From Geobacillus subterraneus (GTDB lineage: Bacteria; Bacillota; Bacilli; Bacillales; Anoxybacillaceae): DNA of 64,000 bases. The notes below the pieces were generated by a model. That model did no database searches. It saw only the letters and a program-made list of their open reading frames with translations, and was not told where the DNA came from. The stretch covers positions 1,612,001-1,676,000 of the forward strand of contig NZ_CP014342.1 in assembly GCF_001618685.1 (NCBI RefSeq). The letters are read 5' to 3'. The position numbers and the translations under genes are program-made. Positions 349 to 11,608 of this stretch are shown here, piece after piece; the first letter of the stretch is position 1; each line of letters begins with the position of its first letter.

Positions 349-410
349 CTGTAGATGAGTATTTTTCATTACAGTAATTTCCATTCCCTAAGAGACAAAC
401 AGGGGACCCC

Positions 411-1363
411 TTAGGCGACATGGAGCTGTTTTTTGATCACATCAATGGGAATATCTTGCTTTGCGGCGTCATAGATGAACTCGACGACGCTGTGCCCTTT
501 CCGAGACCGAAGAAGCTCCAGGCCGGAAGAGATGTCTTGTTGAGATTCCGCGATGCTGTATACGCAGGCTAACAGCACCACGACCCAATACCGTTTCACC
601 GCCCGAACGTGGCGAACACGGTACCCATCGAGCTTCAGCTGGTCTTTTGCCTGCCGGAAAAAGCATTCGATCGTCCAGCGCTGGGCATAGTAACGCAAGA
701 TGTCTTCGTCACTCAGCTCCCGGTCGGTGCTCAATATGACATGGAGATGATCCGGCGTCATCGGTTGATCCGCCTTCCAAGCCAGCAGCACCACCGCGTC
801 ATCAAGACCGTTGAGCGCGCCTTCGTAGCGGTAGACACGATAGCGCTCGTTCCCCACCGTGACGAGGCGGGTGTCGTTGGGCTCGATATAGCGGGCAAAC
901 TCCTTCGCTTGGATGGCGATACCTTTCGGGTAGAGAATCCGGTTCGTCTTGAGCATGGCGATGACATGGAATCCTTGTTTCAGACAGGCTTCGATGAGCG
1001 CTTGGGACGGATACCATGAATCCATGAGCACATACACCGGCTGAGCCCGCTTCCTCTTGAGCGAGGAAAGCATCTCGATCGCCAGGTCGATTTTGCTTCT
1101 TCCCGATGTCTTGTCATACAGACGAAAGGCGAACGGAAACGCTTGCGTGAAGGTGTGCACCATCAGCCAAACAAGCGAATGCCCCCAGACCAATTGATGA
1201 TCGCTGTGAGAGAAATGCCAGTCACACCCTTGAATGGCGTGCGTTGCCCGTGACGAAGGCTTCGTTTTTTGGCAAATGGTATCATCAATCGAAAGGAACA
1301 GGGGTTGATTCGTCCGTTTGGCCAGGCGTTCGATCTGGCGAAGAACCCACTCCTGAAGCTTCT
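411..1363 (-). pseudogene. IS4-type DDE transposase, C-terminal part (interrupted)
   Basis: This is the larger, C-terminal part of the IS transposase. It carries the first Asp (FLSIDDTICQKT), the second Asp (YVLMDSWYPS) and the IS4 signature Y-x2-R-x3-E-x6-K (YAQRWTIECFFRQAK), so all catalytic residues are present. The reading frame continues upstream into the inner transposon only by chance (MCKKMLLLF... is element DNA). The native N-terminus is at 4470-4709. Joined through the CTTCT site the two parts give one uninterrupted frame of 395 codons ending at 411. As it stands the protein lacks its first 80 residues and should be inactive. Confidence 0.9.
1359..1363. repeat. Target-site duplication CTTCT (left)
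   Basis: CTTCT directly abuts the left end (TGTAAATTA) of the inner transposon and recurs at 4470-4474 against its right end. Five base pairs is the duplication length known for Tn7 and Mu-type transposition. Confidence 0.9.
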
Positions 1364-1513
1364 TGTAAATTATCACTTTATTTTGGAATAAAAGAAGCAT
1401 TTTTTTGCACATTTCTTCAGAAAGCCCTCTCCCCTTTTCTGAAGGAATGTGCTAATTTTTTTGTGAATTGTTTCGGACGAAGATTGCCATTCGTTTCAAG
1501 GGGGGGAGGAAGT

Positions 1514-2065
1514 GTGATCCAGTTTCACGACTTTGGCATTGACATTCAAACGTATACGGATCGTGGGAAAGAGAACGATTTTCCTGATGTAAACCAATGT
1601 CCCCACTGTCTATCCCGCCGCCCCTTGCACCGTCACGGATATTACCAACGCTATGCGTTGACGGCAGAGGGGGAGTATCGCCTTTGGATCGCGCGGTACC
1701 GCTGCCAAGAATGCCGCAAAACCGTGAGTGTGCTGCCTTCGTTCCTCCTCCCGTATGTTCAATATACCCCATCCGTCATCTGGCAAGCGGTCAAAGCATG
1801 GCTCGAAACGCCAAGACGAGGAGCGAAGACCAAACAGGTTGGTTTTCCCACCAAGGGGGTCATTTTGTTTTATGTCCGACGATTTTTCCGGAATCTCCCC
1901 CGCTTGCATCACGTGGCGGCGAGGAGATGGGGGATCATCGGCCCTGTGGGGAACGCAAGAACCGAACGGGCGGTCTGGTGGATGCAGATCTTGGAGGGAC
2001 GGGGGGTGGGCTCGATCATCCAAGACCTGTGGGCCAACGAGAGATGGCATCTGTTTGCAGATTAA
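1514..2065 (+). CDS. DUF6431-type zinc-ribbon protein of the transposon
   Basis: 183 residues from a GTG that follows GGGGGAGGA. The open frame extends further upstream but has no ribosome site there. Residues 28-31 (CPHC) and a later CQEC pair form a probable zinc ribbon, followed by basic, aromatic-rich sequence (RYRCQECRKTVSVLPSF) resembling the N-terminal zinc-binding domains of transposases. It is the first gene of the transposon, 153 bp before the DDE transposase and in the same direction. I recall this family (DUF6431) being found next to IS481-like transposase and ExeA-like ATPase genes, but that is memory and not a search. A DNA-binding or target-selection role is inference. Confidence 0.7.
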   Translation: MIQFHDFGIDIQTYTDRGKENDFPDVNQCPHCLSRRPLHRHGYYQRYALTAEGEYRLWIARYRCQECRKTVSVLPSFLLPYVQYTPSVIWQAVKAWLETPRRGAKTKQVGFPTKGVILFYVRRFFRNLPRLHHVAARRWGIIGPVGNARTERAVWWMQILEGRGVGSIIQDLWANERWHLFAD

Positions 2066-2218
2066 ACCGTTTCCCAATTTTACATTAAAAACCAAAAAAG
2101 GGGACTGTTGATGTTTCCACAAACCCTTCCTCTCGACGAATCTCGAGCCGTTTCGTAAGATAGGGGGCAGAGGGACCGGGACGGTCCAAAATCACAGAGA
2201 GGCAAGGAGGAGATCCGG

Positions 2219-3469
2219 ATGGATGAATCGATGAGACACGATATCGCCCTGTTTCGGTACGGGCTGATCGCTCCGTTGGTGAATGGGCAGGTGGAACCCA
2301 AAGCGTATTTGAATGAGGTGGGCGGGCGAGTGCACTCGATTCCTCATCAAGGGGACAAACTCATTGCGACGAAGACGATTCTGGATTGGTGTGCTCGATA
2401 CAAAAAAGGGGGCTTCGACGCCTTGAAGCCGAAGCGCCGTTCGGACCGCGGCCGCTCCAGACGTCTGTCGCCCGATGATGAGGATCATATTCTAGCATTG
2501 AGGAAGGAACATCCCACCATGCCCGTTACCGTTTTCTATGAACAACTCACCAAGCAGGGGGACATTCCTACCACCCTCTCATATTTTACTATATATCGAC
2601 TGTTGAAAAAACACAACCTAGTGGGAAAAGAAATCTTGCCGATGCCGGAGAGAAAGCGTTTTGCGTATGACCAGATCAATGAGCTATGGCAAGGAGACTT
2701 ATCCCATGGACCCACGATTCGCGTCCATGGGAAAGCCCAGAAAACGTTTCTGATCGCTTATATCGATGACTGCTCGCGGTTGGTGCCGTACGCGCAGTTT
2801 TTCCCTTCGGAGAAGTTTGACGGGCTGCGGGTCGTCACAAAGGAAGCGGTGATTCGTTGCGGGAAGCCGAAACGCATTTACTCGGACAACGGGAAAATTT
2901 ATCGATCCGAGGTGCTGCAGTATGCGTGCGCCGAGATGGGGATTACGCTCATCCACACCCAGCCGTATGACCCGCAAAGCAAAGGGAAAATCGAACGGTT
3001 CTTCCGCACCGTACAGACGCGGTTTTATCCGCTGTTGGAGCTGAATCCGCCAAAGTCGCTTGACGAGTTGAACGAGCGGTTTGGGAAGTGGCTTGAAGAA
3101 GAGTATCACCGAAAACCACACGCCTCACTGGACGGAAAAACGCCGCATGAGGTGTTTCAGTCCCAAGTGGAACGAGTGGTGTGGATCGAAGACATCGACT
3201 GGCTGGATGCGATTTTTCTGAAACGGGAGCACCGCAAGGTGAAAGCCGATGGCACGATCACCCTGAATAAACAGCTATACGAAGTGCCGCCTCGGTTCAT
3301 TGGGCAATCGATTGAGCTCCGCTATGACGAACGAGGCGTCTATGTGTACGAAGACGGCAAACGAGTAGCGGAAGCCATTCGGGTGCGTTTGGAGGATAAC
3401 GCCCATGTGAAGCGTCACCGGTCGCCGTTTGCGGCAGTTCCAGCGAAGGAGGGAGAACACGGTGTATAA
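2219..3469 (+). CDS. DDE transposase, IS481/TnsB-like
   Basis: 416 residues; ATG 6 bp after AAGGAGGAG. An N-terminal helix-turn-helix region (about 40-90, with TKTILDWCARYKKGGFDAL) precedes an RNase H-fold core with D160 (WQGDLSHG), D223 (IYSDNG) and E259 (QSKGKIERF). The spacing D-x62-D-x35-E is the classical D,D(35)E pattern. The C-terminal part (about 330-400) is a small beta domain of the Mu-transposase type. The product should cut and join the element ends, binding the repeated sites at both termini. It overlaps the ATPase gene by 8 bp, so the two are translationally coupled as TnsB and TnsC often are. A plain IS481 element would not need the ATPase. Confidence 0.9.
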   Translation: MDESMRHDIALFRYGLIAPLVNGQVEPKAYLNEVGGRVHSIPHQGDKLIATKTILDWCARYKKGGFDALKPKRRSDRGRSRRLSPDDEDHILALRKEHPTMPVTVFYEQLTKQGDIPTTLSYFTIYRLLKKHNLVGKEILPMPERKRFAYDQINELWQGDLSHGPTIRVHGKAQKTFLIAYIDDCSRLVPYAQFFPSEKFDGLRVVTKEAVIRCGKPKRIYSDNGKIYRSEVLQYACAEMGITLIHTQPYDPQSKGKIERFFRTVQTRFYPLLELNPPKSLDELNERFGKWLEEEYHRKPHASLDGKTPHEVFQSQVERVVWIEDIDWLDAIFLKREHRKVKADGTITLNKQLYEVPPRFIGQSIELRYDERGVYVYEDGKRVAEAIRVRLEDNAHVKRHRSPFAAVPAKEGEHGV

Positions 3470-4262
3470 ATCGTTCTACTCTCTTTCGCGGGAGCCGTTT
3501 GCGAAAGAAACCGCCCCGTCCGAGGCGTATCAAGGGGCAGCGTTTCAAGAAGCGCTGCGGGCGCTGGAGTACGTGAAACGAACCCGGGGAATCGGGCTGT
3601 TGACCGGAGAACCGGGGGCGGGCAAGACATTCGCCCTTCGGGCGTGGAAAGAATCGTTGTCCCCTTCTTTGTATCACGTAGTCTACTTCCCGTTATCGAC
3701 CGGAGGCGTGATGGATTTTTACCGCGGGCTGGCCCTTGGGTTGGGGGAAGAACCGAAATACCGCAAGGTGGATCTCTTCCGCCAAATCCAGCAGGCCATT
3801 GAGCGGTTGTATCATGAACGGCGGATCACACCGGTGTTGATATTGGACGAGATGCATTTAGCGAAGGATGCCTTTTTACAGGACATCGCCATCTTGTTCA
3901 ACTTTGAGATGGATTCAACCAACCCCTTTGTCTTGATGTTAGCTGGGCTGCCCCATTTACAGGGGAAGCTGCGGCTCAATCAGCACCGCCCTCTCGATCA
4001 GCGGATCATCATGCGATGCCGGATGGGGCCGCTCGAGAAGGAGGAGGTGGCGGGCTACATCGAGCATCGGATGAAACAGGCCGGGGCGAAGCATCCGATC
4101 TTCACTCCATCGGCGTTAGAGGCGATTGCCCTGCAGTCGCGGGGATGGCCTCGGGTGATCAACACGTTGGCTACGACATGCCTGCTGTACGGGCATCAGC
4201 TGAAAAAGGACGTCATTGACGAAGAAGTGGTACGCATGGCCACAGAGGAAATGGGGTATTAG
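3462..4262 (+). CDS. AAA ATPase, ExeA/TnsC-like transposition regulator
   Basis: 266 residues from a GTG inside the end of the transposase gene, preceded by GGAGGGAG. It has the ExeA-type start (MYKSFYSLSREPF), Walker A GEPGAGKT at 49-56, Walker B VLILDEMH near 125, and the C-terminal sensor region (RGWPRVINTLATTCLL). ATPases of this group (TnsC, MuB, IstB-like) couple target DNA to the transposase and give target immunity; that is family knowledge. The overlap with the DDE gene supports a joint role. The gene ends directly at the stem of a terminator (4262-4295). Confidence 0.88.
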   Translation: MYKSFYSLSREPFAKETAPSEAYQGAAFQEALRALEYVKRTRGIGLLTGEPGAGKTFALRAWKESLSPSLYHVVYFPLSTGGVMDFYRGLALGLGEEPKYRKVDLFRQIQQAIERLYHERRITPVLILDEMHLAKDAFLQDIAILFNFEMDSTNPFVLMLAGLPHLQGKLRLNQHRPLDQRIIMRCRMGPLEKEEVAGYIEHRMKQAGAKHPIFTPSALEAIALQSRGWPRVINTLATTCLLYGHQLKKDVIDEEVVRMATEEMGY

Positions 4263-4295
4263 CACGAAAGGGGCCGAATCGGCCTCTTTTGTGCT
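4262..4295 (+). terminator. Rho-independent terminator of the transposon operon
   Basis: GCAC-AAA-GGGGCCGA pairs with CGGCC-CTTT-GTGC around a 2-nt loop and is followed by TTTCTCTTTT. The stem begins within the ATPase stop codon. Confidence 0.8.
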
Positions 4296-4469
4296 TTCTC
4301 TTTTCCATCGGTCCACCAGGCGCGCTGGAAATCTTCATCTGAAAGAGCGTGCAAACGTTCCGAAAGAATGTGCAAAATCCGGAACAATCCGCAAAAATTT
4401 TGCACATTATTTCGGAATCCGCCTGAAATAATTTGAAAAAGGGATTCTGAAATAATGTGCTAATTTACA

Positions 4470-4709
4470 CTTCTCAAGCAGTTTTTCCTCGTTCCAAGGG
4501 CTTTTCGTGAAAAAGTGGCTGAGCGTGGTTCGATGATTCGGATGAAAACTCCAGTACCGGACATCCGTCAATGTCCCCGAAAATCCCTTGGTCGTCAAGG
4601 CGTCGACAAGATGAACGAGATGCTTGATGACCGGCTTCGAGAAATAAAGCGCCAATCCCAGCGTCATGAAAAACTTGTGGATTCCTTGATGATGTGCTAA
4701 TCTATTCAT
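4470..4709 (-). pseudogene. IS4-type DDE transposase, N-terminal part (interrupted)
   Basis: This is the first 80 codons of the transposase whose remainder is at 411-1363. It starts MNRLAHHQGIHKFF at 4709, ten bases after AAGGAGG, and reads to NEEKLLEK at the CTTCT duplication. The same N-terminus, nearly identical, occurs at 26300-26529 on the plus strand. Apart from the insertion I see no stop or frameshift, so the interruption may be fairly recent. Confidence 0.88.
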
Positions 4710-5029
4710 GAGACATGAACCTCCTTGTGGGTAGTTGGTAGCACATCTATTCTAACCAAGGAATCGGGTTCATGTCTCCTTTTTTGTTTAGTTTGTAAAT
4801 TTATGTTAGCAAATTTGCTCATCTACAGTATGGAATTTATATACCGCAATGTTCTATACTTTTTTCTTGTAAAAAACAAACGGTAACGAAAGTGCGTATC
4901 GATTCATCGTAGCCATTCGGTTTTCCTTGTCCTGATCCTCCTGTGTTTTTACTCATTTTTCCTTTTTGTTTCCTATATGCGTTACCACGTCGATCACTTC
5001 AGAACAGAATGGTTTAGCACCATGGCTGC

Positions 5030-5056
5030 TTGTTGGTCCCTAATTGGGACCAACAA
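5030..5056. repeat. Perfect 11-bp inverted repeat
   Basis: TTGTTGGTCCC pairs with GGGACCAACAA around the loop TAATT. No T-run follows on either strand, so it is not an obvious terminator. It could be a relic transposon end or a protein-binding palindrome. Confidence 0.6.
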
Positions 5057-5285
5057 AAGAGACGAATCATCGTGCCGAATAATGATAAGGTATTTCCAAA
5101 TGTTGAACACAAGAGGGAGAATAGGGCCTGCTGATCTGCAGAAAAGAATATGTGGGATGAAATACGATTCCTTGTTTACCAATGGTCGGGCTTACGGAAA
5201 AATGGATCCGTAGGTCACAAAGGGGCAGGGGGATGTATTTGCGGATTCAGACAAAATGGTGTTGATGGAACCTATCGTTTCATAA

Positions 5286-5321
5286 GGTTAACTGGGTATA
5301 CAATAACTTACCCAGTTAACC
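5286..5321. repeat. Perfect 13-bp inverted repeat
   Basis: GGTTAACTGGGTA and TACCCAGTTAACC are separated by ten bases. No T-run follows directly. Function unknown; the region around it is non-coding. Confidence 0.6.
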
Positions 5322-6059
5322 CTATGAACAACTTCATTCCCCTTTTCTTTCCACAACCGCGTCAAATCACGGTTTTTTATAAACAAAATCCCCCTTTCCA
5401 AGAAGAGAATTAGGATCTCACATCTCCAAATCCGCTCCTGATTTTTGAATGCCCCCGACGTTTTATCAAGAGTGTTTCCATTGTAAACTTATGAAGATAC
5501 TCATCGACAAATGGATGAAATTTTTACGGAGTGTTTCAATGGCTGGTCACTATTTCTGTATCAGAACAATCATCAAACTCCCACTCCTTTCATTCATAGA
5601 CGCAAAGGAATTCGTTGAAAATGGATCATGTATAGGTACCTATTGCTCGTCACGATGATTAGAAATAAAAAATGACGTCTGTCAGAATCACGATAAGCGT
5701 CAGCTCGATTGCCCCCTTTTTAACCCTTCACTTCGAACTTCTTCCTGCAAAATAACCAATCCACTCCACTTTTTTGATCTGTTGAGCGGATTTTATCCGT
5801 TATGGTGAAGATTTCCCCTATAATAAACAGCGGCCGCGTCACCCGTTCCATCCCTCCGTCATCGATGATTTGGACTTATCCCTATTCCCTCTCACTTTTA
5901 TTTTTTGTCTGACATAAAATATCCATAAACATAGGCTTGCCCATTGGCCAGCCTCATCCACTCTCAGTCATGACCGTCTTCCTTTTTCAGGATATAGTTG
6001 AACATCATCACTTGAAAAGAGATTTGGAGGCTTTGTATATCGGTTTTACATGCCATGTC

Positions 6060-6180
6060 CTATGATATGAAAGAGGCCATATTTCTTTCTGTTTTCTTCG
6101 CCCAATACAGGGCTTGATTGGCTTTCTCCAGAAAACCGCTTATCGATTCCCCAAGAGTTATGGTATCCTTATCACAAAGG
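6060..6180 (-). pseudogene. GGDEF diguanylate cyclase, C-terminal relic
   Basis: The minus-strand frame reads ...LGESISGFLEKANQALYWAKKTERN... to a stop at 6060-6062. The pattern E-KANQALYWAKKTERN matches the C-terminal helix of GGDEF domains (usually ADQALYxAKxxGRN). Upstream sequence no longer continues the domain, and the catalytic GGDEF loop is absent. A second relic of the same kind lies at 36738-36870. Confidence 0.55.
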
Positions 6181-6236
6181 CAACATCAAGGCGGCTAAAA
6201 TAAATCCAAACCCCAATCGAAAGGAGCAACCAAAGC

Positions 6237-6425
6237 ATGGATGATAGCAAAGAATATTGTCCGTTTTGCGGGGCTGATTTGCAAGGACCACCGATCCCGA
6301 AAGAAATCCAGCATCATTACGGCGCTACTCATGGATCCAGAAAAATCGGTATTTACAGTCGGGAAGAAGATCGTGTCATCAAATGGCAATGTCCGGATTG
6401 CGGAAAGGAATGGGAGCGGGAGTGA
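6237..6425 (+). CDS. Small zinc-ribbon protein
   Basis: 62 residues, with GAAAGGAG about 10 bp before the ATG. CPFC near the N-terminus and CPDC near the C-terminus (WQCPDCGKEW) make a two-knuckle zinc ribbon, joined by a charged middle part. Such short ribbons occur as stand-alone proteins of unknown role in bacilli. It has no operon partner here and is followed by relic DNA. The intact ribosome site, start and paired cysteines argue that it is a real gene. Confidence 0.6.
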   Translation: MDDSKEYCPFCGADLQGPPIPKEIQHHYGATHGSRKIGIYSREEDRVIKWQCPDCGKEWERE

Positions 6426-7092
6426 ATCCCCTTTTTTCTTTTTTTACTTTCAATCCTGACAGTATGAGGTCCAGTGCAAAGCAGATTCAAACAACGTGTT
6501 GTAGATTCCGATTTTCCATTCCCTCTACCGTTTCGTTTGGTCGTGGCTGCACCAGCTAGCTCCATCCACTTACCGTTGGCTTTTTGTTTACGGCAAAATA
6601 AATGGACAGAGAGCGGATAGGAATTTTCCTATATCACTTGAACGCGGAAGTGTTGGGGTGATTGCTTCTTAGGTAAAGCAGCCCTTGATACGGCGCTTTA
6701 CTACGCCCGCAGCGGCTTCATGTCAAACGGACATTCTCTACACTTTTTACAAAACGCTGCTTTTTTTCTTTACGGTCCACACATGCCTGCAGTATCCTTC
6801 AACAAATTGAACATACACTCGAACGGTGGCAAGCACCGTTCTCAATATTACAAAATTTTACAATAAAAAAATAGAAACAATATATATTACCTCTGATATA
6901 AATAAAAAACGTGTGATGAGGTGTCCGTTAAATAAAAAAGTTTTTTATGAAGAGGACAAGAAAGGAGTTGAAGTGTCCTCCAACACCTCAACTCCATCAG
7001 CGCAGCATATCCGTTAGATAAACGGTCTTTGTAGTACACGGTGAATAATAAAAATCCATCTGAACTTTTTCCATTTTAATTAAGTGAGTGGT
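6426..7092. other. Non-coding stretch with transposase relics
   Basis: No intact gene. On the minus strand, 6701-6762 encodes AAFCKKCRECPFDMKPLRA before a stop, resembling the cysteine cluster of IS1182-type transposases (weak). At 6964-6993 GGAGTTGA and TCAACTCC form a hairpin. The plus-strand frame at 6826-7017 has no ribosome site and low-complexity content, so I do not call it. Confidence 0.35.
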
Positions 7093-7292
7093 TGTTTAGT
7101 GCAAAATGAAAGTACAGAGTTCTGCAACCGAAAAGTGCAGAGCTTTTCATTATATAAAAAAGACTTGCCAGCCCCTAAAATCCCCTCCGCCACTGTTACG
7201 ATTGTGAAGAATAAAACAGTGGAGTGATAAAAAGGATGCTGGCAATGTCCGACACTCATCCTATCAAACATTTACGTGACAAAAAAAGCGCG
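7093..7292 (+). mobile_element. IS21-like left end with start of istA
   Basis: TGTTTAGTGCAAAATGAAAG begins at 7093. Related TGCA-containing sites follow within 60 bp, as in IS21-family ends. At 7236 a frame MLAMSDTHPIKHLRDKK resembles the start of IstA (a helix-turn-helix protein) but is cut off after about 17 codons, where the hsdR 3' end begins. The mirror-image end is at 16426. Confidence 0.6.
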
Positions 7293-7307
7293 ATCCTATT
7301 CTCGTTG

Positions 7308-10300
7308 TCATGCATTCATCGGCCAGTCTTTGTATTGCTGCTCGGCTTGTTCCATGAATTTGTTTGTTAAAAATTGCAATTGTTGGCCGGTAATTTTTTC
7401 TTTGATGAGTACTTGCTTGACAGCCAATTTAACCTTCGCATAGACGTCCCGACGGTGTGGACTTGTCCAATCTACAGCTAATTGTTTCTTTAAGGCTTTG
7501 ACCACCTTATGGATTAAACTAGCAAGAAACTCGTTTGAGAACGCTTCCTGCTCCATAGCAGTAATCGCTTTGTAAAATTCAATTTCTTCCTCTGACAATC
7601 CCAAATCGTGTCGCTTGCGTATTTCTTCTTCCATTTCTTTGCGCATGTTAATCATAACCCTGACCACATCGGCAGCCTGAATGACACGATTATGGTAATC
7701 CCTTAACGTTTTCTCTAGAAGTTCGCTTAACGCCTTTGACTGTGGGCTTCCTTGGCTAAATGTCACTTTGATTTGGTCCTCTAAAAGTTTTTTCAGCAAC
7801 TTTAAGCGCAAGTCTACATGCTCTTTTTTCGTTAAATCTGCTAAGAATGCATCATCCAATATGCTGATATCTGGGCGTTCAATCCCTGCTATTTGGAAAA
7901 TGTCAACAGTTTCTTTGGCCAATAGACTATTGTCAATCAGTTCTGATAGTCGCTCTTCTAACGTTTTGTTTTCCTTAGATCCCCCTGTTGACGGGCGTAA
8001 ATGTTTGCGAAGCTGCGCTTTCATCATGAAATAAAGCATGACCTCATCTGCAAGTTCAAGTACTTCCGGCTGATGTTTCACCAGCTGATACGATTTTTCC
8101 AGTTTGGCAGCTGCTTGGATATATTCCTCGGGATCTCGGTTTAAAAGAATGTTAACAAGATCTGCAATGAAGTCTTCGCGCTCTATCTTTGGTTTTGCGC
8201 GCCAGTTTTGCACATCAATCTCACTTGGAATAAATCCTCTTACTGCCTTCAGATAATCCATGAAGATATTAACGGCCTCTGAAATATCATAAGTAGGACT
8301 TCCCGTGCCGCCACTTTGCGTATATTTATGAGTTGCTTCTTTCAGGGAAGTGGCGATTCCAATATAATCAACGACTACTCCGCCTTCTTTTCCCGGAAAC
8401 ACACGGTTTACACGGGCAATAGCTTGCATAAGATTGTGACCCCTCATTGGCTTATCGACATAAAGATAGGAAAGCGGTTTAGCGTCCATTCCTGTCAGCC
8501 ACATATCGACGACAATGACAAATTTCAAAGGGTCTTCTGGATCACGAAGTTTGGCTTTCACTTCTTCTTGCTCTTTTTTCGATTTAATATGCGCATATTT
8601 GCTTCCCGGCTGAACCTCTCGCCACTCTTTAGGATCCTTTGATACATCTCCTGTCATAATCACTTCAACAGGAGGGCATTCTGGAATCTCTCTCAGATAA
8701 TTATACAAATCCACCGCAATGCGCCGGCTCATGCAGACAATCATTGCTTTTTGAAACGGATTGGCGACTTGGTTAAAATGTGATACGATATCTTTGGCTA
8801 AACGACGGAGCCGTTTTGGAGTACCGACGACTTTTTCCAGAGCGACCCATTTTCTTTTATAGTTCTCTGACTCTTCATCGTCTCCCCCTGCTTCTTCGAT
8901 AATTTCTCTGTATTTTTCATCAATGTCCTCAGTAGATAAATCAAGCGGAATTAGACGGCTCTCATAGTAGATTGGCAATGTCGCTTTGTCTTCGACCGCC
9001 TGAGCCATATCGTAGCGGTGGATAATATGTCCAAAAATTTCTTCTGTATTGTTATCAACAAAATCAACCGGGGTTCCCGTAAATCCAATATAGGAAGCGT
9101 TCGGCAAAGCATAACGCAACTGAGCGGCAAATCCGCCCGCAAAACCGGCTTGGGTGCGATGTGCTTCATCGGCAATCACAACAATGTTTCGTCTTTCCGA
9201 TAAAATAGGGTGTCGGGTTTCTCCTTCTTTTTTACGGAATTTTTCAATAGTGGAGAAAATAATTTGTCCCGCTTCCCCTCTCAGTAATGTTCGCAACTGT
9301 TCGGTACTTTCCGCGTGATGCACATGGCCGATGTATGATTTCCCCTGCACAAACGTATCATGCAACTGTTCGTCTAGGTCATTACGATCCACTTGAATGA
9401 CAATAGATGGATTTTCCATTTCCGGGTGGCGAGACAAAATTCCTGCGAAAAATAACATGCTTAGCGATTTACCCGAACCCGTTGTATGATACATTACCCC
9501 GATTTTCCGATCCCCATCCGGACGCGTTGCACGGATCGCTTCATTGACAGCGAAGTTTACGCCAAAAAATTGGTGATATTTCGCGCCAATTTTTGTAATT
9601 TTACTTCCTTCCTCCAAAAAGACAATAAAATTACGAATATAGTTTAATAGACGGTCTTTTGGAAATAATCCTTCAATCAGCGTGCGCATCGTATTGGCGC
9701 GGTTGTTATCGACATTTCGTCCATCAATCGATTTCCATGAGGCAAAGAAATCGTAATCGGCAAACGGCATTCCATGCTTCGTTTCCACGTTATCGGAAAT
9801 GACAACAAAAGCGTTGTAGTTAAATAATTGCGAGATATCATACGTATAGTTTTGGATTTGGGTATATGCATCATAAACAGTCGCCTGCTCGTTGTTCGGG
9901 TTTTTTAACTCAAATACAATCATCGGCAAACCGTTAATATATATAACGATATCTGGACGGCGGGACATGCGTCCTTCAATCGGTAATTGATTGACCACTA
10001 AAAAGTCATTGTTCTCCGGATGTTCCCAATCGATCGGGAAAACATGAGGCGTGTACGTTTCATCGTTTACCTCATAAGAAAATTCAATTCCTTTCGTCAA
10101 CATTTGGTGAAAATGCATATTTCGGTTAATCAGTTTTACCCCATCCGGCGCCGTCAAAATTTGAGCAAGCCTTTTGATTTCTTGTTCCGGTATGGCCGGA
10201 TAAGCCTTCTTTAAGAAGGCTTCCAACCGACCGTAAAGAACTACCTCGTGAAGACTGTCCCGCTCTCCACGCTGAAACAATTCCTGCGCATGAAGATAGT

Positions 10301-10370
10301 CATAACCTAACCGTTTTAAACGTTCAATCGTCGTCTCTTCAAATTCCGTTTCACCTAGAGGTCTCGTCAT
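7308..10370 (-). CDS. hsdR: Type I restriction enzyme, R (motor/nuclease) subunit
   Basis: 1020 residues, full length for HsdR. The N-terminal nuclease domain has PDIVIYINGLP...VFELKN (PD-(D/E)xK). It is followed by the SF2 translocase with Walker A TGSGKS (HTTGSGKSLSML), ADEAHRTQ (DEAH box) and TGTPVD. The C-terminal region is helical and charged and docks on the methylase. In the complex it pulls DNA in and cuts it far from the site when the site is unmethylated. It is the last gene of hsdM-hsdS-hsdR, 35 bp after hsdS. Its 3' end directly abuts a broken istA, so the locus boundary is a recombination joint. Confidence 0.95.
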   Translation of the reverse strand: MTRPLGETEFEETTIERLKRLGYDYLHAQELFQRGERDSLHEVVLYGRLEAFLKKAYPAIPEQEIKRLAQILTAPDGVKLINRNMHFHQMLTKGIEFSYEVNDETYTPHVFPIDWEHPENNDFLVVNQLPIEGRMSRRPDIVIYINGLPMIVFELKNPNNEQATVYDAYTQIQNYTYDISQLFNYNAFVVISDNVETKHGMPFADYDFFASWKSIDGRNVDNNRANTMRTLIEGLFPKDRLLNYIRNFIVFLEEGSKITKIGAKYHQFFGVNFAVNEAIRATRPDGDRKIGVMYHTTGSGKSLSMLFFAGILSRHPEMENPSIVIQVDRNDLDEQLHDTFVQGKSYIGHVHHAESTEQLRTLLRGEAGQIIFSTIEKFRKKEGETRHPILSERRNIVVIADEAHRTQAGFAGGFAAQLRYALPNASYIGFTGTPVDFVDNNTEEIFGHIIHRYDMAQAVEDKATLPIYYESRLIPLDLSTEDIDEKYREIIEEAGGDDEESENYKRKWVALEKVVGTPKRLRRLAKDIVSHFNQVANPFQKAMIVCMSRRIAVDLYNYLREIPECPPVEVIMTGDVSKDPKEWREVQPGSKYAHIKSKKEQEEVKAKLRDPEDPLKFVIVVDMWLTGMDAKPLSYLYVDKPMRGHNLMQAIARVNRVFPGKEGGVVVDYIGIATSLKEATHKYTQSGGTGSPTYDISEAVNIFMDYLKAVRGFIPSEIDVQNWRAKPKIEREDFIADLVNILLNRDPEEYIQAAAKLEKSYQLVKHQPEVLELADEVMLYFMMKAQLRKHLRPSTGGSKENKTLEERLSELIDNSLLAKETVDIFQIAGIERPDISILDDAFLADLTKKEHVDLRLKLLKKLLEDQIKVTFSQGSPQSKALSELLEKTLRDYHNRVIQAADVVRVMINMRKEMEEEIRKRHDLGLSEEEIEFYKAITAMEQEAFSNEFLASLIHKVVKALKKQLAVDWTSPHRRDVYAKVKLAVKQVLIKEKITGQQLQFLTNKFMEQAEQQYKDWPMNA

Positions 10371-10405
10371 GTTGCTTGCACCTCCTAGTCGAATCTATAT
10401 CCAAT

Positions 10406-11608
10406 TTAAAGTACTTCTTCTACTTGTTTTTCTGCTTTAGATACATCAATTTCACCTGATAAAAGGCGAGGGAGGAGATAGTCTCTAATGTCTTGTAACT
10501 CTTTGTTTTCTAAAGTGTTTGATAATATTTGTAAAAACATAGGTTTTACTTTCTTCTCAAATTTAATTGCAAAATCCTTATTAAACGGTAACTCTAATGA
10601 TTTTAATGTATCTTTTGTTATAGTGTTAAATACAGAACCATGTGACTGACTAATCAAGGTATTTATTGAACTTTTTAAGGTTAAAAATACAAAACAGTCC
10701 AGTTCATCTTTTGCCTTTACTGCGTAGCACGATTGGTTCATAGTCATCTCTTTACCTATAATACTGATGTTTCCGATTGTACCTCTTGCCGATAAAACTG
10801 TTGAGAATGATGGTAATAATTTTGTGGAACTATTATTCAGCCCTGCTTCAGTTATTTTTTTCTCTGTTTCAATGATCACAGCTGAATTCAAATCCTTTAC
10901 CGAAATCCAAGGAATATTACCATCCCAATATTCTGCAACTGTTGTTTTAGGTGTTCCTCCACCAATAATACTACCAAACTCCTCTATTGAAACTCTCTCT
11001 AAATCCCCATTCTCAACAAACCAATGTTTGTATAAGGTCATAGCCATTTCTTCTAATGTACTGTTAATACGTTTATTTAAAGTAATCTTATAGTTAATGG
11101 AGTGCAATATATCGCAGATTTTTCTCTGTACATTTATTGGTGGTAACAATATTGATAATTTTTTTAATGAATCAATAGTTATTGCTTTTTGCGTTGAACC
11201 TATTGTAATTTTATCTATTTCTCTTTTTCCTACATCAGATTGAAACCAATAATAAATATACTCACTTAAAACATCTGAACGAAAGTTTTTAAACCATGTT
11301 AAATTTCCGTCTTTAAAATAAAATTTATCTTCCTTTTTCACAAGATAGGGTACACCTAACGTACCCACAGATGTCAGTAATAAATCTCCTTCAATTGGTA
11401 CACCATACTTTTCCTTTATCTCTTCATATCTTTCTGTAGATATATATAAAGTTTCATTTATCGGTTCATCATGATGTTTCTTAATAATTTCTTTTGATCT
11501 GTAGAAAGGAATACCCTCATTTACATATTCCTTCATAAATATCCTTTTACTTGAACTTATATCACAAAGATCTCCCATAGACTCTAATTTCCATTCTTTT
11601 TTTATCAA
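10406..11608 (-). CDS. hsdS: Type I restriction enzyme, S (specificity) subunit
   Basis: 400 residues with the usual two target-recognition domains, each ending in a conserved helix (LLPPINVQRKICDILHSINYKI... near 160 and LSNTLENKELQDIRDYLLPRLLSGEI at the C-terminus). The second domain begins IIGGGTPKTTVAEYWDGNIPWISVKDL. It decides the bipartite target read by HsdM and HsdR. The start codon overlaps the hsdM stop (ATGA type). The gene is more AT-rich than hsdM and hsdR, as is common because hsdS genes exchange recognition domains. The sequence alone does not give the DNA target. Confidence 0.93.
   Translation of the reverse strand: MIKKEWKLESMGDLCDISSSKRIFMKEYVNEGIPFYRSKEIIKKHHDEPINETLYISTERYEEIKEKYGVPIEGDLLLTSVGTLGVPYLVKKEDKFYFKDGNLTWFKNFRSDVLSEYIYYWFQSDVGKREIDKITIGSTQKAITIDSLKKLSILLPPINVQRKICDILHSINYKITLNKRINSTLEEMAMTLYKHWFVENGDLERVSIEEFGSIIGGGTPKTTVAEYWDGNIPWISVKDLNSAVIIETEKKITEAGLNNSSTKLLPSFSTVLSARGTIGNISIIGKEMTMNQSCYAVKAKDELDCFVFLTLKSSINTLISQSHGSVFNTITKDTLKSLELPFNKDFAIKFEKKVKPMFLQILSNTLENKELQDIRDYLLPRLLSGEIDVSKAEKQVEEVL

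Follow-up and report, generated by a model that had tools for sequence, protein, structure and literature searches.

Within the window, the 64,000-bp stretch of Geobacillus subterraneus DNA analysed here, a 3106-bp transposon with tips TGTAAATTA and TAATTTACA spans positions 1364-4469 and interrupts an IS701-family transposase gene. Both tips, each abutted by a copy of CTTCT, lie where the original prediction had placed them. Only three genes are found between the tips, encoding a DUF6431 protein, a transposase and an AAA+ ATPase; phage structural genes are absent, so that the element does not qualify as a Mu-like phage. In window coordinates, the features of the locus are as follows.

411..1363, minus strand: longer portion of the target gene that the insertion splits, coding for an IS701-family transposase (191.1 bits with NCBIfam NF033540, cut-off 150; the joined frame has 409 codons)
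1359..1363, no strand: target duplication CTTCT, left copy, read from the sequence
1364..1478, plus strand: left end, tip TGTAAATTA, with four 19-bp sites at 1370-1388 (+), 1404-1422 (+), 1437-1455 (-) and 1460-1478 (+)
1514..2065, plus strand: DUF6431 gene with a GTG start codon, encoding 183 aa that include a CxxC...CxxC zinc ribbon, above the PF20020 cut-off
2219..3469, plus strand: transposase gene, 416 aa, D160-D223-E259, with HTH_32, rve and Mu-transpos_C domains
3462..4262, plus strand: AAA+ ATPase gene of the MuB/TnsC type, 266 aa, overlapping the transposase gene by 8 bp
4337..4469, minus strand: right end, tip TAATTTACA, with six 19-bp sites at 4337-4355 (-), 4358-4376 (-), 4377-4395 (-), 4399-4417 (+), 4421-4439 (-) and 4445-4463 (-)
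4470..4474, no strand: target duplication CTTCT, right copy, read from the sequence
4475..4709, minus strand: 5' portion of the split IS701-family transposase gene

Protein components, mobility and distribution

The predicted overlap of a D,D(35)E transposase gene with the ATPase gene is present, and D160, D223 and E259 are invariant across 18 aligned transposases. The transposase scores 247.9 bits against the NCBIfam IS481 model (NF033577; cut-off 224), which 18 of 18 relatives match at E<=1e-10. The top solved match of its profile is TnsB of ShCAST (E 2.1e-31), as befits the TnsB-type DDE transposase of a Tn7-like transposon, and IstA of IS5376 is matched at 2.6e-20. Among solved proteins, the ATPase profile best matches MuB (5.7e-13), then VchTnsC (4.3e-8) and ShTnsC (3e-7), a profile match consistent with the TnsC-type AAA+ ATPase of Tn7-like systems; of the earlier label "ExeA/TnsC-like" the TnsC part stands, and MuB/TnsC-like is the better term, MuB being the top match. 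The predicted ATPase fold (pLDDT 81.8) is close to those of Cdc6/ORC, MuB and TnsC, and Pfam TniB is matched by only two of 18 members, the window ATPase not among them.

The 183-aa protein scores 45.1 bits against Pfam PF20020 (cut-off 26.6), which upholds its assignment to DUF6431. Across 23 aligned homologues C64 and C67 are invariant and C29 and C32 nearly so. Its structure was modelled with low confidence (pLDDT 63.9), and the model gave no Foldseek match at E<=0.001; VIA-align paired it, over ~45 residues and with Z <=4.3, with zinc ribbons of NrdR and RNA polymerase, indicating a zinc-ribbon shape and no more. The VIA-align matches include no TniQ or TnsD chains, which is uninformative. 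A full-text literature search found DUF6431 named in a single paper, and there in a gene table only.

A second copy, 100% identical to the window element, lies at a different site in the same genome, indicating recent movement. Near-identical copies (99.5-100% over the aligned part) were also found in genomes G109 (n=4), G292 (n=3, one without a located right end), G157 (n=3) and G510 (n=7). A circular or tandem intermediate, in which right and left ends are joined across a spacer of 0-12 bp, was found in none of 14 genomes of the genus, a weak test since such junctions are short-lived. As predicted, one site recurs several times in each end and in both orientations; it is 19 bp long. Random stretches of matching make-up (n=300) held a mean of 0.39 and at most four such sites, versus ten in the element ends, of which five formed the search seed and five are independent. 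Multi-site ends recur in relatives, with positions partly kept and with the query tip site included in the relatives' counts.

The DUF6431-transposase-ATPase cassette occurs in Bacillota and Pseudomonadota, and in Rhodococcus with a weak DUF6431 match; it is often accompanied by a fourth small ORF, which the window copy lacks. A DUF5348 identity for the fourth ORF, annotated in one record, was set aside; Pfam gave no such match in five other small ORFs tested. Transposase and ATPase genes remain adjacent across phyla and are under purifying selection (dN/dS 0.04-0.22, omitting an ATPase pair with L085 that fits poorly, at 0.30, and L026/L048, which are nearly identical). DUF6431, which in some relatives combines a zinc ribbon with an HTH, diverges fast and is also under purifying selection (dN/dS 0.11-0.31 where the frames are intact; for some pairs no value was obtained, and those with L009, L010 and L003 were unused because a frameshift inflates the values). 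It is a conserved zinc-ribbon component, probably exchanged between lineages, and is present in 11 of 12 compared elements and in 14 of 17 plasmid records (our selection from search matches). Among 398 genomes sampled from the phylum it was found in 95, in 88 of them above the curated cut-off. At 30 DUF6431 loci taken, a transposase of this kind adjoins in 22 and the ATPase in one, giving 23/30. In viral contigs, the transposase scan found no relative and the ATPase-profile scan at least seven loci, two of which (L200, L201) show the whole gene order by eye; 14 matches came from phage records, none spanning 80% of the query.

Relation to known systems

Tn6049 (Cupriavidus metallidurans CH34 pMOL28; Pseudomonas plasmid pHS87a) is similarly compact at 3517 bp and encodes, in order, a small Cys-rich protein, an IS481 transposase, an AAA ATPase (gspA) and a small ORF, the first three types being shared with the window element. 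Its transposase is a full-length homologue (hhalign probability 100, 436 columns) that is 26-29% identical to ours, and its target-site duplications (TSDs) are of 4 bp (CTGC) and 5 bp (TATGG). The differences are that the first gene bears only a weak resemblance to DUF6431, the tips (TGTGCATAAGCA) are unlike those of the window element, and the fourth ORF has no counterpart there. Passages of PMC2864759 and PMC4739549 describe features that Tn6049 shares with the element; in print, Tn6049 is termed uncategorised.

With the TnsB-TnsC core of ShCAST and Tn7, the element has in common the transposase type, the ATPase type and the arrays of end sites, along with TGT/ACA tips (given for ShCAST/Tn7 in a passage of PMC11406308). 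Several transposase sites per end are a Tn7-like trait to which the four left and six right repeats would correspond. Unlike ShCAST and Tn7, the element is without TnsA, TniQ, TnsD/E or a guide, its TSDs are of 4-8 bp, and its targets are unshared. A fixed 5-bp duplication is characteristic of Tn7-like transposons, and their Tn5053 and V-K branches are not known to encode TnsA either. The 5-bp duplication foreseen in the original prediction is present at the window copy, but as a general trait it gives way to lengths of 4-8 bp over 30 sites. With TnsA and TniQ lacking, TSDs of 4-8 bp, unshared targets and IS481 as the curated transposase family, membership among Tn7-like transposons is not retained. 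The accompanying description as a "minimal TnsBC system" survives as a mode of action, for which the matches to TnsB, to MuB and then TnsC, and the multi-site ends of relatives speak; judged from sequence, a TnsBC/MuAB-like mechanism is well supported.

The MuA-MuB pair of phage Mu shares with the element the top solved match of the ATPase, the Mu-transpos_C domain and insertion at many unrelated targets; unlike Mu, the element is not a phage, has varied TSDs and carries DUF6431. IS21 (IstA-IstB), a TnsB/TnsC relative for which, according to a passage of PMC10293859, no target selector has been reported, likewise pairs a transposase with a helper ATPase. The element falls far below the IS21 cut-offs (IstA 57.8 against 160, IstB 16.8 against 200), which places it outside that family, and the DUF6431 gene is an extra relative to IS21.

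The IS481 match and varied TSDs, which in IS481 range from 2 to 15 bp according to a passage of PMC10045372, raise the alternative of an ordinary IS481-family IS with passengers, its ATPase and DUF6431 being dispensable for movement. The match of all 18 relatives and the 4- and 7-bp duplications flanking L009 and L010, whose DUF6431 frames are broken, are in its favor. Unlike a single-gene IS481 element, however, this one has two further conserved genes, and its relatives often three; the lasting adjacency of transposase and ATPase genes across phyla, the purifying selection on both, the target-activator type of the ATPase and the purifying selection on DUF6431 also argue against this alternative, which we regard as very unlikely.

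Insertion sites and target choice

Duplications at 30 clean sites were most often 7 bp long (18 sites), followed by 5 bp (5), 6 bp (4), 4 bp (2, the weakest of the set) and 8 bp (1). Clean duplications flank 13 of 26 Geobacillus-group copies checked and a duplication was found at 17 of 19 copies in relatives. Among the 13 Geobacillus-group copies without one, three (L037, L041 and L045) have an end that is truncated or mis-set; L047, whose right tip was not located, lay outside the test, and the 7-bp duplication GTTTCAC of L153 was kept out of the counts. Comparing insertion targets over homologous loci, proposed with the original prediction, yielded a weak palindromic core, nTAwTAn, and an excess of insertions in IS genes in the Geobacillus group, but no common target: the 30 sites share no gene or long motif, ruling out a common attachment site or gene, such as the dedicated attachment site of Tn7-like transposons. 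The data do not bear out the proposal that DUF6431 is the target selector: targets of DUF6431 elements have no gene or long motif in common, and copies with a broken DUF6431 frame also lie at duplicated sites, although intact-frame copies in the same genomes could have helped there.

Clean insertions inside transposase genes of other ISs number 6 of 13 in the Geobacillus group and 1 of 17 in relatives (Fisher P 0.025). The six hit five IS families, all antiparallel to the element, and this bias may point to some target choice. For IS genome shares of 1.9-8.4% (from 44 and 69 DDE_Tnp_1 genes, assuming 1.5 kb each, x1 or x3 for other families), the chance of at least 6 of 13 is 7e-8 to 3.6e-4; with IS DNA set at 30% of tolerated targets it is 0.17. 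Of 39 further ends, the eight that by eye abut a transposase gene were tested against transposase models: seven match, three over cut-off, and L017 has no match. These seven are of mixed orientation, four antiparallel and three parallel. Where an end has no duplication, later rearrangement may have brought it next to an IS. IS701 copies were set aside as a neutral comparison for insertion of one IS into another; the 25 viewed appear, in our reading, to favor AT-rich flanks, with 5-8 bp repeats where found.

These data bear on whether DUF6431 might be a target adaptor that replaces TniQ, recognises a DNA feature or DNA-bound protein, recruits the ATPase and biases insertion to mobile DNA such as IS transposase genes. 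The low chance of six IS-gene insertions, their common antiparallel orientation, the seven matching further ends and the fast divergence of DUF6431 are consistent with such a role, and TniQ proteins likewise join zinc and HTH modules. Yet the relatives, with a single IS-gene insertion, likewise have DUF6431; selection against insertions in needed genes could yield the excess; positions within IS genes vary, with no motif beyond nTAwTAn; and the further ends are of mixed orientation and, where duplication-less, may reflect rearrangement. We consider this role unlikely, and give an equally slim chance to the broader notion that DUF6431 is a new adaptor class for MuB/TnsC-type ATPases, unrelated to TniQ, steering to mobile DNA (transposase genes of other ISs) or to a DNA or protein feature there, and swapped between elements as a module.

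Probable TniQ independence and possible roles of DUF6431

TnsA, TnsD and TniQ are, as predicted, absent from the three genes of the element. TniQ (PF06527) has no match in the source genome (G000) or in G011, G292, G510 and G642, and TnsA (PF08722) none in the source genome. TniQ genes do occur in G109, G157 and G175, and a TnsA-type gene in five of eight genomes, including G292 and G510, so that help in trans is excluded only in genomes without a match. Since the element has multiplied in genomes without detectable TniQ, the transposase-ATPase core apparently works without known Tn7 selectors.

We favor, as the likely explanation, that this is a transposon of the Tn6049 kind which moves by itself and independently of TniQ, and in which DUF6431 is accessory and not a sequence-specific target selector. 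The lack of a clean duplication at half of the Geobacillus-group copies and the bias of that group to IS genes count against this explanation. The transposase, a TnsB/IstA-like DDE enzyme of the IS481 group, would bind the end sites and pair the ends; the ATPase, by analogy with MuB and TnsC, would assemble on target DNA and activate strand transfer; and DUF6431 may bind DNA and act on end assembly or expression control. Insertion occurs at many unrelated sites with a weak nTAwTAn core, yielding 4-8 bp duplications outside TGT/ACA tips. The element is akin to a widespread, barely studied kind of compact TnsBC/MuAB-type transposon; as a small system, it allows the contribution of a third factor to a TnsC/MuB-type ATPase to be examined.

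A special case compatible with this explanation, which we put forward tentatively, would have DUF6431 repress the element or control its copy number by binding near the left end and promoter. DUF6431 is the first gene, adjoining the left end and separated by ~150 bp from the transposase and ATPase genes. Additionally, between the element and L013 or L047 the left end and DUF6431 diverge jointly (83% and 68%), against 98% for the right end, although linkage of these neighbours alone may explain their joint divergence. Copies with broken DUF6431 frames, also in line with such control, occur at three sites in three genomes.

Anatomy, copies and end sites

The element belongs with the Tn6049-like IS481 transposons, and it is real and recently active. 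Its features in the window are:

1364-4469, element of 3106 bp with tips TGTAAATTA and TAATTTACA
CTTCT, target duplication flanking both element ends (from the sequence)
1514-2065, DUF6431 gene
2219-3469, transposase gene
3462-4262, ATPase gene

As originally predicted, the transposase and ATPase genes overlap (2219-3469 and 3462-4262), sharing 8 bp. The interrupted gene, on the minus strand, encodes an IS701-family transposase, whose frame is restored to 409 codons when the flanks are joined minus one repeat. Read from the sequence, the interrupted IS701-type element (349-4828, tips CTGTAGATGAG and CTCATCTACAG) appears complete; it is bordered by TATGGAA at 342-348 and 4829-4835.

The host genome (G000), a single 3.47-Mb contig, holds a second copy (1096527-1101525), both parts of which are 100% identical to the window element. 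This copy interrupts an IS982-type gene and is flanked by a different repeat, CCTAAAA. An insert of 1886 bp divides its DUF6431 gene; the largest frame of this insert looks, by eye, like the IS1634-type target at locus L013. A third copy is 91% identical. Close copies occur in named records of Geobacillus, Parageobacillus, Anoxybacillus and one Ureibacillus, and relatives at 61-67% transposase identity occur as near-identical copy sets in other genomes: four in G109, three in G157, seven in G510 and three in G292, where the right end of one was not found. At locus L043 of genome G011 (1223-10739), copies of the same kind of element are apparently nested: a copy flanked by a clean duplication lies in an IS4 gene, which is itself enclosed by both ends of an older one.

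The expectation that each end carries several copies of one site in both orientations was borne out: four copies of a 19-bp site like TTAGCACATTATTTCAGAA lie in the left end and six in the right. Left-end positions are 7, 41, 74 and 97 in the window element, 7, 41, 75 and 98 in the copy at L048, and 41, 74 and 97 in the more distant G510 element; the site at 74 is retained in G292 and G157, and G109 has, at its left end, the tip site only. Totals in the four distant elements, including the tip site used as query, are 3, 3, 3 and 6, against 0.3-1.1 by chance. From these positions and totals, the layout is partly conserved in relatives, with the signal weak in three of the four distant elements.

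Transposition proteins and affinities

The transposase meets the NCBIfam IS481 model (247.9 bits; cut-off 224), which all 18 members of a broad transposase alignment match at E<=1e-10; D160, D223 and E259 are invariant. Among solved structures, the top match to the transposase profile is ShCAST TnsB (2.1e-31), followed by IstA of IS5376 (2.6e-20) and then integrases. The profile of the ATPase, which has an AAA_22 domain, matches MuB best (5.7e-13), then TnsC of Tn6677 and ShCAST and, more weakly, Tn7 TnsC (5e-4), with unrelated AAA+ proteins interspersed among these matches; the predicted ATPase model (pLDDT 81.8) lies near Cdc6/ORC, MuB and TnsC. That the element would work like a TnsBC/MuAB system is well supported by such profile comparisons. 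To this extent the original reading of a minimal TnsBC system stands. Membership of the Tn7-like group is not supported: the fixed 5-bp duplication and shared target are absent, as are TnsA and TniQ.

The predicted lack of TnsA and TniQ extends to the host, G000 giving no match to either. TniQ matches were also absent from G011, G292, G510 and G642, and TnsA-type matches from G011 and G642, each being present in the remaining genomes searched. In G292 and G510 the element has multiplied without detectable TniQ, with one TnsA-type match in each; the window element is apparently TniQ-independent. Genomes G109, G157 and G175 carry TniQ and TnsA-type genes ~4-7 kb apart, which are probably true Tn7-like elements.

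A layout like that of the window element is found in Tn6049, described from C. metallidurans (PMC2864759; 12 copies, with gspA as the ATPase gene) and from pHS87a (PMC4739549); the first gene of Tn6049 resembles DUF6431 only weakly, and its fourth small ORF is absent from the window element. The Tn6049 transposase aligns with that of the window element over 436 columns, and its gene is 100% identical between pMOL28 and pHS87a; Tn6049 is 3517 bp long, with 5- and 4-bp repeats in these two plasmids. Other papers state that the transposition module of Tn6049 'could not be categorized' (PMC6210171), mention Tn6049-related transposons in Acidithiobacillus (PMC3414803) and, in a review, describe TGT/ACA tips as common to IS481-family and Tn7-like elements (PMC11406308). 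We found no description of the window element in full-text literature on DUF6431, DUF5348 transposases or Geobacillus ExeA transposons, or, judged by titles and passages among the matches listed, in IS481 literature with AAA ATPase, TnsB/TnsC, TniQ or MuB/TSD, most subscription literature lying outside the search.

Insertion sites and duplications

A fixed 5-bp stagger is a Tn7/Mu trait. The 5-bp duplication holds at the window element (CTTCT) but is not general: lengths at 30 clean sites were 7 bp (18), 5 bp (5), 6 bp (4), 4 bp (2) and 8 bp (1), and therefore a fixed 5-bp stagger does not hold. Within the Geobacillus group they were 5 bp (five), 7 bp (four), 4 bp (two) and 6 bp (two). The 18 sites of 7 bp show a weak symmetric core (raw counts T 10, A 11, T 14 and A 10 at positions 2, 3, 5 and 6). 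Duplications of 2-15 bp are in print for IS481 members (PMC10045372).

Targets at the 13 Geobacillus-group sites
Transposase genes: IS701, IS4, IS1634, IS4 and IS982, each above the NCBIfam cut-off
IS256 fragment (80.9 bits, under the cut-off of 150)
Trehalase gene
Transporter permease gene (under the Pfam cut-off)
ArdC gene, on a plasmid
NOV_C-domain gene
ORF without assignment
Site upstream of a sigma-54 gene
Site with no convincing gene

At the relatives' 17 sites, where every spanning frame was scanned, targets were istB (1/17) and HTH_3, acetyltransferase, TetR, DUF1643, UvrD, SSF symporter, ABC-3C and S-layer genes; eight gave no Pfam match, five of them in frames of <90 codons. No target was shared over the 13 and 17 sites. 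The IS share of Geobacillus-group targets is high relative to the 4-69 DDE_Tnp_1 genes per genome, and selection may account for it. Among 39 further ends, eight were chosen by eye and tested; seven abut matches to transposase models (three above cut-off), four antiparallel and three parallel.

The DUF6431 protein

In DUF6431 a CxxC...CxxC zinc ribbon precedes a variable helical region, with an HTH_23 match in some relatives; its model (pLDDT 63.9) gave no usable fold match. Of 12 elements compared, 11 have the gene upstream of the transposase; in this set the 5' part of L151 is truncated and the DUF6431 frame of L131 is short. The same holds for 14 of 17 plasmid records hand-picked among 60 matches listed of 4998 (nine by annotation, three by tblastn, two by Pfam, of which Rhodococcus is under cut-off); the Undibacterium, Streptomyces and C. 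metallidurans records gave no DUF6431 match. Conversely, among 398 genomes sampled from the phylum, 95 contain DUF6431, and at the 30 loci listed its neighbours were the transposase (22), the ATPase only (1) or neither (7).

Compared with L013 or L047, the window element has 68% nucleotide identity (dS 1.4) in the DUF6431 region and 88-93% (dS 0.36-0.37) in the transposase. Because dS is also raised, module exchange is favored over selection alone, and the region has probably passed as a module between lineages. DUF6431 dN/dS is 0.11-0.31 for pairs with intact frames.

The original prediction cast DUF6431 as a possible target selector. Copies at L003, L009 and L010, in three genomes and at three sites, have one frame-breaking change in common, located at the second CxxC, and thus a lineage with a broken DUF6431 gene seems to have spread. 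Since L009 and L010 are flanked by 4- and 7-bp duplications, an element may not need DUF6431 in cis; general dispensability does not follow, as the same genomes hold other copies with intact frames. Current evidence makes a target-selector role for DUF6431 less likely than one in regulation or assembly.

The host genome also gives a 30.6-bit DUF6431 match at G000:C1:3419795-3420040, within an open frame of 396 aa that may encode another kind of transposase bearing this domain. A fourth ORF of ~85 aa after the ATPase gene, mostly overlapping it, occurs in L126, L131, L134, L147-L149 and others and is absent from the window copy; one record labels such a protein DUF5348. By eye, the whole DUF6431-DDE-AAA-small ORF cassette is also present on an IMG/VR viral metagenome contig (L201, 1627-4661).
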